A stretch of 45,462 nucleotides of DNA from positions 1-45,462 of the forward strand of contig CALVAA010000014.1 of NCBI GenBank assembly GCA_944325315.1. The letters are read 5' to 3'. This DNA is from Candidatus Gastranaerophilales bacterium (lineage in GTDB: Bacteria; Cyanobacteriota; Vampirovibrionia; Gastranaerophilales; Gastranaerophilaceae). Made by a program: the position numbers and the translations under genes. Positions 42,217-45,462 of this stretch are shown piece after piece (the stretch's first letter is position 1; each line of letters starts with the position of its first letter). Under the pieces are notes generated by a model. The model was not told where the DNA came from and searched no databases. It saw only the letters and a program-made list of their open reading frames with translations.

Positions 42217-43086
42217 ATGAAAGGCATTGTACTTGCTGCAGGTGCAGGCTCAAGATTGTATCCTGCGAGTCTTCCTATTTCAAAAATATTGTTACCGGTT
42301 TATGATAAACCAATGATATATTACCCTATTACAACCCTGCTTTTAGCCGGTATTAAAGAAATTCTGATTATTACAAACAAGTACGATATTGACAATTTCA
42401 AAAAAGTTTTAAAAGACGGAAGTCAAATAGGAGTAAAGTTTTCTTATGCTATACAAAAAGAGCCAAAAGGCATAGCCGAAAGCTTTTTAATAGCTGAAGA
42501 TTTTATTAAAGACTCCCCTGTTGCGCTTATTTTGGGAGATAATATTTTCCACGGGTTTGGATTTTCTTCAATGCTAAAAGAAGTTGCGAAAAGAAAAACC
42601 GGAGCAACAGTATTTGGCTATTTGGTTCAAGATCCAGAAAGATTTGGCGTAGTTGAATTTAATAAAAATAATAAGGCTGTTTCTATTGAGGAAAAACCTA
42701 AAAATCCCAAATCAAATTATGCTGTAACAGGCTTGTATTTTTATGACAACAATGTTGTTGAATATGCAAAAATGCTTAAGCCATCTTTAAGAGGTGAATT
42801 GGAAATTACTGATTTAAACAAAATATATCTTGAAAAAAATAAACTTCAAGTAGAAATTTTAGGCCGCGGATTTGCCTGGTTGGATACAGGAACTTTTGAA
42901 AGTTTATTGCAAGCAGCCAACTTTGTTCAATCAATGGAAATTAATACCGGAATGAAAATTGCTTCAATTGAGGAAGTGGCCTATCGCATGGGTTATATTT
43001 CTTCGAATGAACTTTTAAAACTTGCAAAAAACTATAAACAAAACGGCTACGGTAAATACCTTGAAAAAATAGCTTTAACTGTTTAA
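42217..43086 (+). CDS. rmlA: Glucose-1-phosphate thymidylyltransferase
   Basis: Makes dTDP-glucose, the first step to dTDP-rhamnose and other surface sugars. The 289-residue protein has the nucleotide-binding start GIVLAAGAGSRLYPASLPIS (3-22), where most RmlA read GGxGTRLyP, a small departure. KILLPVYDKPMIYYP then follows; GDNIFHG is the metal and sugar site and RGFAWLDTGT is conserved near the C-terminus. It starts 6 bases after recA with no clear SD of its own. Other rml genes are not nearby. Its end overlaps the convergent gene by 4 bases. Confidence 0.94.
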   Translation: MKGIVLAAGAGSRLYPASLPISKILLPVYDKPMIYYPITTLLLAGIKEILIITNKYDIDNFKKVLKDGSQIGVKFSYAIQKEPKGIAESFLIAEDFIKDSPVALILGDNIFHGFGFSSMLKEVAKRKTGATVFGYLVQDPERFGVVEFNKNNKAVSIEEKPKNPKSNYAVTGLYFYDNNVVEYAKMLKPSLRGELEITDLNKIYLEKNKLQVEILGRGFAWLDTGTFESLLQAANFVQSMEINTGMKIASIEEVAYRMGYISSNELLKLAKNYKQNGYGKYLEKIALTV

Positions 43087-44789
43087 TAGTCTAATAGCTT
43101 GCGTAATTCTTCTTCGTTTTTAAGGTAAGCAGCGTCATATGCTTCATCTAATGTTTTTCCTAATAAATCCAGAAAGTACTGTCCGTTATTGAGTTCTGCA
43201 GCAATTGCACCAATCGAATAATATAAACTGTTAATAATTTCTCCGGAAATACCGGATACCGGAACTTTGATATTAAGTTGGGTATAAGGGTTTATGTATA
43301 TTGGAAATTCTTTCAATAATATATTTAGCTTTTCATTTAAAATTTTAACATCATTATTGGTATATTTTTCTAAGTTTTTTTCCAGTTTATTTTTAAATGC
43401 AATTATGGCTATTTGTCTGGATGTTGCTATATCATCCGCTGTATTTTTGTAATCATTGCTGTATTTATCTATAATACTTTGTACTTTTTTAACTGCATTT
43501 TTGGTTTCCAACGTGTCTTTGTTTTCGCCTGCATAAATATATGCAGTGCCTATTCCTATATCCGGCAATTCAAGATTTCTTTCTTGTGCATATTTTTTCA
43601 TGTCTTCCCTTAATGCTTTTGGAAACATTTCAAGCGTATAAGATTTTTTTTGTATTAAAGAAAAATCTTGTTGCATTTTAAGAGTTTTTTCAAGAGCAAT
43701 ATAGCCCTTTTTTACTGCTTTTGAAAGCTGTTCTTTTGCCCAAGCATTTTTTTTGAAAAAAGCGGCGAGTGCTGTTTTTTGTTTTTCGTCTAATTTTTCA
43801 ATACCGCTTAATTGTTCTTCATTTATGTTCGTATTGTTGTATTTTTTTATAAATTTATTTAAGTGTTTTAAAACACTTTTTCCTTCTTTTGTTTTATTCC
43901 AGGCATAGTCCATGGCAAAATGCCTTTTTTCCTTTTCTTCAGGGTTTTCTATGTAAAATTGTCTTTGTCTTTCGGAAATTACAATGGAAGCTTCTGGGTT
44001 TTCTTGGTAATATTTTTTGAGACCTTCTGAAATATGTTTTTTATGCGCTTCAGATAAAGAACCTGAAGGAATAACAACACCTTCTCCTTCATATAGCTGC
44101 TGTTTTGCTTCATGTGCTTCTTTTCTTTTAATTGACATTTGTTCAGTGAATTTTTCATTGTATTCTTTATTGGACAACTTTAAAACAATGGCATATCTCG
44201 GATTCAGCAAAGGAATATTTAATTTTTTGCCCATTGAATAATGTGCATTTTTTGTGTTGTTACTATCGTTTTGTTCGATATATTTTGAAATATCACTTAA
44301 AGAAAAACCTTGCCCCCAGTATAGTTTTATTAGTTGAAGAGTTAAGTCTTCCTGAGGAGAAAATATTTCGGACTGTCCGTTTTGAAAATTGTATATAAGA
44401 CTGTTCTTGTTTGCGTCTACTTCCCAAGCGGATTTAGCATCTTTAAATTCGGGATATTTTTCTTTTAATTCTTCCAGACTATAGCAATCTAAAATTTTTT
44501 TATATTTATCAAGATGGATATCATAAAGAGTTTTGTCCTCAGGATTCCCGCACTCAAGTGTTTGAAGTGCTTGCTGTCTTATTTGGGGTGGGAATTGGTT
44601 TTCGTTTAATTGGTTTACGGTTTGTTTTAAATCTACGCTGTATCCTCCCAAAAAAGCCAGATACTGGTTTGTTAGGGGAACATAATTATTATTTACAGCA
44701 TGTGTTTGAAAATTGTTATTGTTTTGTTTTTGTTTTGCAATTTTGTTGTTATTATTAAATTCTGCTTGGCTGATGTTTGAAATGCGCAT
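43083..44789 (-). CDS. Large protein of unknown function with NUMOD3-like motif
   Basis: A 568-residue soluble protein with no signal peptide. The N-terminus is Asn/Gln-rich, with YLAFLGGYSVDL near 43-54. A helical segment with a helix-turn-helix look (LTLQLIKLYWGQGFSLSDIS, about 148-167) follows. The stretch SGSLSEAHKKHISEGLKKYY (about 241-260) and the next lines resemble NUMOD3 DNA-binding modules found beside homing endonucleases, but I see no GIY-YIG or HNH nuclease motif. The C-terminal third is helical. AAGGAA lies about 6 bases before the ATG. The nucleic-acid-binding call is speculative. Confidence 0.65.
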   Translation of the reverse strand: MRISNISQAEFNNNNKIAKQKQNNNNFQTHAVNNNYVPLTNQYLAFLGGYSVDLKQTVNQLNENQFPPQIRQQALQTLECGNPEDKTLYDIHLDKYKKILDCYSLEELKEKYPEFKDAKSAWEVDANKNSLIYNFQNGQSEIFSPQEDLTLQLIKLYWGQGFSLSDISKYIEQNDSNNTKNAHYSMGKKLNIPLLNPRYAIVLKLSNKEYNEKFTEQMSIKRKEAHEAKQQLYEGEGVVIPSGSLSEAHKKHISEGLKKYYQENPEASIVISERQRQFYIENPEEKEKRHFAMDYAWNKTKEGKSVLKHLNKFIKKYNNTNINEEQLSGIEKLDEKQKTALAAFFKKNAWAKEQLSKAVKKGYIALEKTLKMQQDFSLIQKKSYTLEMFPKALREDMKKYAQERNLELPDIGIGTAYIYAGENKDTLETKNAVKKVQSIIDKYSNDYKNTADDIATSRQIAIIAFKNKLEKNLEKYTNNDVKILNEKLNILLKEFPIYINPYTQLNIKVPVSGISGEIINSLYYSIGAIAAELNNGQYFLDLLGKTLDEAYDAAYLKNEEELRKLLDY

Positions 44790-44913: not shown

Positions 44914-45010
44914 CAAATGTAACAAAAGCTTAATATTTACTACTACCGTAAGAAATTATTACAAACAGGATATTTTGCTAGTTCTTATGGGCTATTTTTT
45001 TCATGAAAGA

Positions 45011-45039
45011 CTTACATAAAACTTTTTTTGTGATATAAT
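45011..45039 (+). promoter_or_regulatory. Promoter of the 53-residue gene
   Basis: CTTACA (45011-45016), a 17-base spacer and TATAAT (45034-45039) preceded by TGA, an extended -10. The predicted leader is about 40 bases and includes an SD. Confidence 0.65.
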
Positions 45040-45086
45040 ATATGACAAATCATGTTGTTAGTTGTAAAATTCGCTAGGAGGTTCTT

Positions 45087-45248
45087 ATGGCTCTTTCCAC
45101 ACAAAATCCAAAGGCTCAACCGTCAATCAAATCAAAGTTCAATGATGAGTTCCAACATTATTTGAAAAAACAATGTTTGAAAACAACATTTAACGGATTA
45201 GAATTAGAAACATTCAGTTGGTACAAAAAAGTTTTAGGTTTAGTTTAA
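45087..45248 (+). CDS. 53-residue protein of unknown function
   Basis: A short ORF with unusually complete expression signals: extended -10 promoter, TAGGAGG about 5 bases before the ATG, and a strong terminator 100 bases after the stop. The product begins MALSTQNPKAQPSIKSKFND, then EFQHYLKKQCLKTTFNGLEL and ends FSWYKKVLGLV. It is basic, without signal peptide or membrane helix, and has one cysteine. I recognise no family. The SD is one of the best in this window, which suggests high expression. A 29-codon ORF (45258-45347) lies between its stop and the terminator. Confidence 0.75.
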   Translation: MALSTQNPKAQPSIKSKFNDEFQHYLKKQCLKTTFNGLELETFSWYKKVLGLV

Positions 45249-45345
45249 GCTAAAAACATGCAAAACAGTAAAAGCCTTGCCGGGCTTTCCAATCTTGCAT
45301 TGGTAAGACTACTTAGAGTTGGTGTTGAATCTTTGTTTAAGAATT

Positions 45346-45384
45346 AAAAAAGCGAAATTGTTAAAGTCAATTTCGCTTTTTATC
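45346..45384. terminator. Bidirectional terminator
   Basis: AGCGAAATTG (45351-45360) and CAATTTCGCT (45368-45377) form a perfect 10-bp stem with a 7-base loop, with A before and T after, so it serves the small gene on the plus strand and the cut-off gene on the minus strand. Confidence 0.9.
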
Positions 45385-45387
45385 TAT

Positions 45388-45462
45388 TTATTGAAAATAT
45401 CCAAAGCTTTTTTCTATGTTTCCTTCAAGACATTCTTTGTATGATTCATTGTCTGTTTTTAT
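45388..45462 (-). CDS. C-terminal end of a gene cut by the window edge
   Basis: The last 24 codons of a minus-strand reading frame (ending NIEKSFGYFQ) with its stop at 45390-45388, directly before a bidirectional terminator on that strand. The terminator placement supports a real gene. The fragment is too short to name. Confidence 0.55.
   Translation of the reverse strand: MKTDNESYKECLEGNIEKSFGYFQ

Follow-up and report, generated by a model that had tools for sequence, protein, structure and literature searches.

Ribosome modulation factor is a stand-alone small modulator of a large machine, with a length of about 50 residues and a small stand-alone gene of its own. The order Gastranaerophilales is composed of inhabitants of the animal gut, which are non-photosynthetic relatives of cyanobacteria and which, to our knowledge, have hardly been studied at the bench. 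Our search of the literature on small proteins of Gastranaerophilales, Melainabacteria, or Vampirovibrionia retrieved no title or abstract on the family described here, with bioRxiv and most subscription journals outside the scope of that search. The GMSC smORF catalogue was generated with a version of Prodigal that takes ORFs from 30 nt, and the main text of the article makes no mention of Gastranaerophilales, Melainabacteria, or Cyanobacteria (PMC11364881). Since ORFs from that size onwards were taken, the 53-codon gene that is the subject of this work is probably included in the catalogue.

The window, that is, the whole stretch of DNA analysed, is one whole contig of 45,462 bases (G000:C14). 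The 53-codon gene resembles ribosome modulation factor in the size of its product, about 50 residues, and in being a small stand-alone gene. Unlike proteins of that type, its product has no sequence or fold match in the PDB and no match in Pfam or NCBIfam, its charge is not conserved, and it occurs in one order only among the genomes searched. It is also comparable to the small proteins of unknown function in the GMSC catalogue as presented in the main text of that article, being likewise a conserved short frame in which Pfam recognises no domain, and neither has an assigned function; what differs is that the present work establishes, for one family, how it is distributed, the selection acting on it, the structure of its gene, and its taxonomic limits (PMC11364881). 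In our judgement, the best explanation of this locus, held with moderate confidence on the basis of sequence comparisons, is an order-specific gene for a small cytosolic protein that would bind a partner, followed by an untranslated spacer. The features of the locus are as follows:

44979..44999, + strand: upstream block TAGTTCTTATGGGCTATTTTT, conserved upstream of the promoter (28 genus loci aligned)
45011..45039, + strand: promoter, with CTTACA, a 17-nt spacer, and TGATATAAT (extended -10), seen in the sequence
45054..45066, + strand: conserved 5' leader block GTTGTTAGTTGTA, kept across the genus
45076..45082, + strand: Shine-Dalgarno sequence AGGAGGT, conserved in the genus
45087..45248, + strand: 53-codon gene, ATG 45087 to TAA 45248, of an order-specific small protein family; residues 1-14 variable, residues 15-53 core
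45249..45346, + strand: 3' spacer of 98 nt holding a 29-codon ORF (45258-45347, ATG to TAA), judged not to be a gene
45347..45381, + strand: terminator hairpin, symmetric, with 14 pairs and a loop of 7, terminator-like on both strands; its distance from the stop codon was compared with that in relatives

An earlier sequence-only reading of this DNA had reported an extended -10 promoter, a strong Shine-Dalgarno sequence, the 53-codon ORF, the frame at 45258-45347, and a terminator, and all of these lie at the coordinates it gave. The promoter, the Shine-Dalgarno sequence, and the 53-residue frame also extend beyond what chance would provide, being conserved in 28 of 28 genomes of the genus. TG.TATAAT precedes the gene in 28/28 genus loci, accompanied at a fitting distance by a -35 element of the TTACA type in 22 of them, and AGGAGGT is likewise kept in 28/28. 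The leader sequence GTTGTTAGTTGT has an exact match in 26/28 genus loci, and a loose TATTTTT-type pattern corresponding to the block at 44979-44999 was found in 25/28. The Shine-Dalgarno match of the gene comprises 7 bases, versus 3 to 6 in all 39 ORFs of the window with at least 150 amino acids, even though for each of these the most favourable of the first eight starts was used.

Beyond the genus the leader of the small gene looks different while the Shine-Dalgarno sequence remains, the starts having been chosen by it. Hence, the matches of 3 to 7 bases seen in 77 of the 77 loci from the order are a count biased towards such sequences. The looser pattern TGnTANNNT was present within 120 nt in 57 of these 77 loci, a count that has no chance control, and in 74 of them a permissive scan located a terminator-like stem no more than 160 nt behind the stop codon. 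Sequence conservation shows that the gene is served by a promoter and a terminator of its own and by a strong ribosome-binding site, and its level of expression is one that we infer. The conserved block at 44979-44999 is a possible UP element or operator, and the one at 45054-45066 a possible leader element. The leader block has a single exact copy in the genome, with two places at one mismatch versus seven for a control pattern, and TAGTNNTNNTGNGCTATTTTT from the upstream block occurs just once in the genome when up to one mismatch is allowed, as does its control pattern. As both blocks are unrepeated or nearly so, neither marks a visible regulon.

The nature of the gene was examined by codon-level comparisons. 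Among 28 gap-free sequences of the genus, codons 15-53 displayed a pS of 0.62, a pN of 0.031, and a pN/pS of 0.050, while the ratio for codons 2-14 was 0.54 (uncorrected Nei-Gojobori proportions, summed over all pairs). Synonymous sites vary widely and the core protein is almost frozen, which points to coding constraint and not to RNA constraint. Conservation and the comparison of synonymous with non-synonymous substitutions had been proposed as a test when the sequence was first read, and now that it has been run, the 53-codon frame clearly passes. That the gene might work mainly as an RNA, either regulatory or with a dual function, and carry the frame incidentally is suggested by its short stand-alone structure, its terminator, and its conserved 5' leader block. 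Nevertheless, amino acids are kept in spite of the high pS, and the leader block, although kept in the genus, is not visible in the upstream regions compared from other genera, whereas the protein is found across the order; we regard this explanation as having almost no probability.

The distribution of the family is that of a protein bound to a single order. Of 97 relative genomes searched by tblastn, 74 contain it, all of them among the 80 from the order and none among the 17 from other orders of the class. A profile built from 67 of the 77 loci (A1; 10 redundant ones omitted) matched 278 of 382 genomes of the class. Among the 104 class genomes without a match, 20 were itemised, of which 8 belong to the same order and 12 to other orders. 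A second profile (A2), restricted to the core and built from 78 distinct cores out of 157 loci, was searched across the phylum and matched 172 of 386 genomes; L061 was omitted from it, as its core missed the text pattern. The single A2 match outside the order had an E-value of 0.009, which lies within chance for 386 genomes. Meanwhile, 383 of 393 pattern matches in GTDB contigs were confirmed as relatives. Most of the best 80 of these 383 are titled Candidatus Gastranaerophilales, and others among those 80 bear the titles uncultured bacterium, Bacterium, Cyanobacteria bacterium, or Candidatus Galligastranaerophilus, with two under other names, Fusobacterium sp. CAG:439 and uncultured Clostridia bacterium. 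These relatives are the basis on which the genome of the window is assigned to the order.

Second copies are rare. They were read from the A1 search in 7 of the 278 genomes, and tblastn gave three double matches, including a pair identical in protein sequence (G030) and a pair that differs (G049). No second member was detected in the genome of the window at E-values up to 10. Six of the 80 order genomes had no tblastn match and at least 8 order genomes had no profile match, reflecting incomplete assembly or true loss. These results indicate that the family is nearly universal and usually single-copy in Gastranaerophilales. The claim that this is a protein gene of small size, standing alone and equipped with strong signals, thus gained support from both its distribution and its pN/pS, and these sequence data indicate that the 53-codon gene is a real protein gene of an uncharacterised, order-specific family.

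The genes flanking it change between genera, suggesting that the small gene is an independent unit. Each of the two commonest neighbour families was present in only 38 of 157 loci, with some species counted twice. One upstream neighbour family was kept in 20 of the 28 genus loci, and within the genus the small gene is possibly linked to this neighbour. In the window, the gene upstream of the small gene (43083-44789, - strand) encodes a protein of 568 amino acids with a weak TerB_C match (E 0.016, below the cut-off), and related ORFs were found in the neighbourhood of the small gene at 38 of 157 loci, and at 20 of the 28 when only the genus is considered.

The sequence of the protein has two distinct parts. 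A variable N-terminal tail of about 14 residues, probably disordered, precedes the core, whose consensus spans about 38 residues (KSKFNDEFxxYLKKQCLKTTFNGLELETFSWYKKVLGL). Six positions are invariant in 67 sequences: M1, F22, Y25, T34, N36, and G37. Members from the 77 loci are 49 to 59 amino acids long, with starts chosen by the Shine-Dalgarno sequence. The protein of the window is hydrophilic (GRAVY -0.52), and by eye displays neither a catalytic-looking motif nor a membrane segment. Basic proteins predominate in the family, although 11 of 77 members have a pI under 7. As charge is not conserved, charge alone is not the working principle, which argues against simple nucleic-acid binding.

Small size and stand-alone position might also be expected of a toxin, of a protein from a phage or another mobile element, or of an exported signal peptide. 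We consider these identities quite improbable, as the family occurs in nearly every genome of the order, as a rule in one copy, has no fixed partner gene across genera, and is hydrophilic. None of five pattern matches in viral contigs was confirmed, the family was not found in phages, and the protein had no match in PADLOC. Pheromones, moreover, are variable in sequence, and the core of this family is nearly invariant, in disagreement with a signal peptide.

Homology searches linked the family to no described protein, with no consistent significant match across members in Pfam, NCBIfam, or PHROGs. Any one Pfam family matched at most 2 of 67 members (best E 0.0021), and any one NCBIfam family at most one (best E 0.03). 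Two PHROGs without name or description displayed weak matches, phrog_16822 to 15 of the 67 members (best E 0.023) and phrog_9505 to 7 (best E 1.2e-4), and neither matched any of 10 divergent members rescanned at E-values up to 0.1. The best hit of a PDB profile search (E 0.01) covered 21 residues of a phosphodiesterase GAF domain and was taken as chance.

AlphaFold2 produced a poor model of the full-length protein (pLDDT 61), and a model of the core based on 78 sequences reached a pLDDT of 72 and a pTM of 0.39. This second model contains the elements H4-15, E17-21, E24-29, and H31-35. With modest confidence, the core is therefore predicted to form a helix, a beta-hairpin, and a second helix, the invariant N-G being positioned at the turn of the hairpin. 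A Foldseek comparison of the core model with the PDB found nothing (best E 7.2), and a second fold comparison, limited to two PDB chains, gave nothing usable.

As this protein is hydrophilic, displays no catalytic-looking motif or membrane segment by eye, and has a core that is small for an enzyme, it most likely docks onto a partner. We propose that the conserved core would mediate the docking of this small protein onto a conserved cellular partner, perhaps a large and abundant machine, such as the ribosome or RNA polymerase, or a central enzyme, on which it would act as a subunit or modulator. Small size, a near-invariant core, near-universality, and strong signals are the grounds from which we infer this role, and the ribosome and RNA polymerase are guesses made by analogy. 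A more far-reaching version of this proposal is that the protein defines the lineage and serves a core machine, be it the ribosome, RNA polymerase, or secretion, as a subunit or modulator that is possibly essential. It would have arisen at the base of Gastranaerophilales and have been retained by almost all members of the order, with a fold unmatched among solved structures; we regard this version as rather doubtful.

One particular form of such a role is that the small protein replaces a missing core subunit, for example the omega subunit of RNA polymerase. The Pfam omega model scored above its cut-off in only 1 of 58 genomes searched, which was the sole genome from outside the order, compared with 14 of 14 control genomes. 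In addition, the genome of the window and 27 others of the genus had no omega match at an E-value of 0.01. However, 15 of 57 order genomes displayed omega matches below the cut-off, with E-values from 2e-4 to 0.01, in open frames of 81 to 107 amino acids that share nearly the same register of the model. Such matches make a diverged omega likely in the order. The omega family PF01192, furthermore, had no match at E-values up to 1 among the 67 members of the small protein family that were scanned, and we judge the replacement of omega to be highly unlikely. L181 is among the Gastranaerophilales with an apparent diverged omega below the Pfam cut-off (PF01192), and none was seen in the genus of the window.

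Our preferred reading of the gene, namely that it encodes an order-specific protein that binds a partner, describes a family that is ordinary in kind and useful as a lead. Near-universality within the order, restriction to it, and a strongly conserved core make the protein a good candidate for a component on which the whole order depends. The small protein is also a possible marker for Gastranaerophilales.

The stretch downstream of the gene has a different character. The distance between the stop codon and the terminator stem is 98 nt in the window, versus 5 to 39 nt (median 17) in 27 other genus genomes, although a second stem may have been picked up at a few loci. The spacer thus exceeds the genus median by about 80 nt. 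It had been suggested from the sequence that the 29-codon ORF might be a second small protein or a structured 3' RNA. The frame is there, as are the hairpin arms (AAAGCC at 45271 with GGCTTT at 45283, and CCAAT at 45289 with ATTGG at 45299), but both interpretations of them turned out to be unsupported.

For the ORF to be a genuine second peptide, newly gained in this lineage, its translation would have to proceed through coupling or reinitiation on the mRNA that it shares with the 53-codon gene. Consistent with this, the frame is open, with its start codon 9 nt beyond the stop of the preceding gene, and its G+C content (0.37, and 0.42 in its inner part) is higher than in the upstream intergenic region (0.23), as expected of coding DNA. 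Yet none of the 27 other genus genomes has a counterpart of the ORF in the sequence downstream of the gene, nor did a protein search of these whole genomes at E-values up to 10 find the peptide in any of them. Among 288 genomes of the family just four other matches were obtained, with E-values of 0.26 to 0.62, at chance level. Its Shine-Dalgarno match has only 3 bases, which is weak evidence by itself given that 11 of the 39 window ORFs have no better one. Moreover, a frame that long arose in 99 nt in 4.8% of first-order Markov simulations, and the antisense frame is open over the same stretch. In the 288 family genomes that antisense frame gave weak matches in 18 other genomes, the best of them (E 0.057) running across a stop. 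A second peptide encoded in the 29-codon frame was rejected because of its absence from relatives and its chance-level matches, and we assign it a very low probability.

We consider it equally improbable that this 3' stretch acts as a structured RNA element or that the 3' UTR releases a small RNA here. Two short inverted repeats agree with that idea, as does a match of BTnc231, a Bacteroides small RNA model, over 45229-45382 (16.8 bits against a threshold of 80.4, E 0.53). The folding energy of 45249-45346 was -17.2 kcal/mol, however, compared with a mean of -18.4 for shuffled sequences, 123 of 200 of which were at least as stable (z +0.36). No Rfam model matched the window at its gathering score, and a permissive search gave six matches with E-values of 0.038 to 0.75, all far below threshold. 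No tRNA or tmRNA was detected in the window. Searching the genus with 102 bases of DNA from this stretch gave matches in 28 of 28 genomes, but those away from the locus covered 15 to 60 bases at E-values of 0.001 or worse and were read as chance, so that no convincing relative of this DNA was found in the genus.

The 29-codon frame is most likely an accidental one, lying in an untranslated spacer of this lineage. The locus illustrates that two adjacent short frames can appear similar on inspection and yet be told apart completely by comparison with relatives. The higher G+C content of the spacer hints at an inserted fragment, for which the searches that we ran found no source. DNA searches with this stretch gave nothing convincing in phages or plasmids, nor did two exact DNA patterns in viral contigs. 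The genome contains no second copy of the spacer, the second match being the terminator's own inverted arm. On the far side of this terminator, inspection by eye revealed the end of a reading frame on the minus strand (45388-45462) that runs off the contig and is convergent with the small gene. This frame may possibly share the terminator at 45347-45381 with it.
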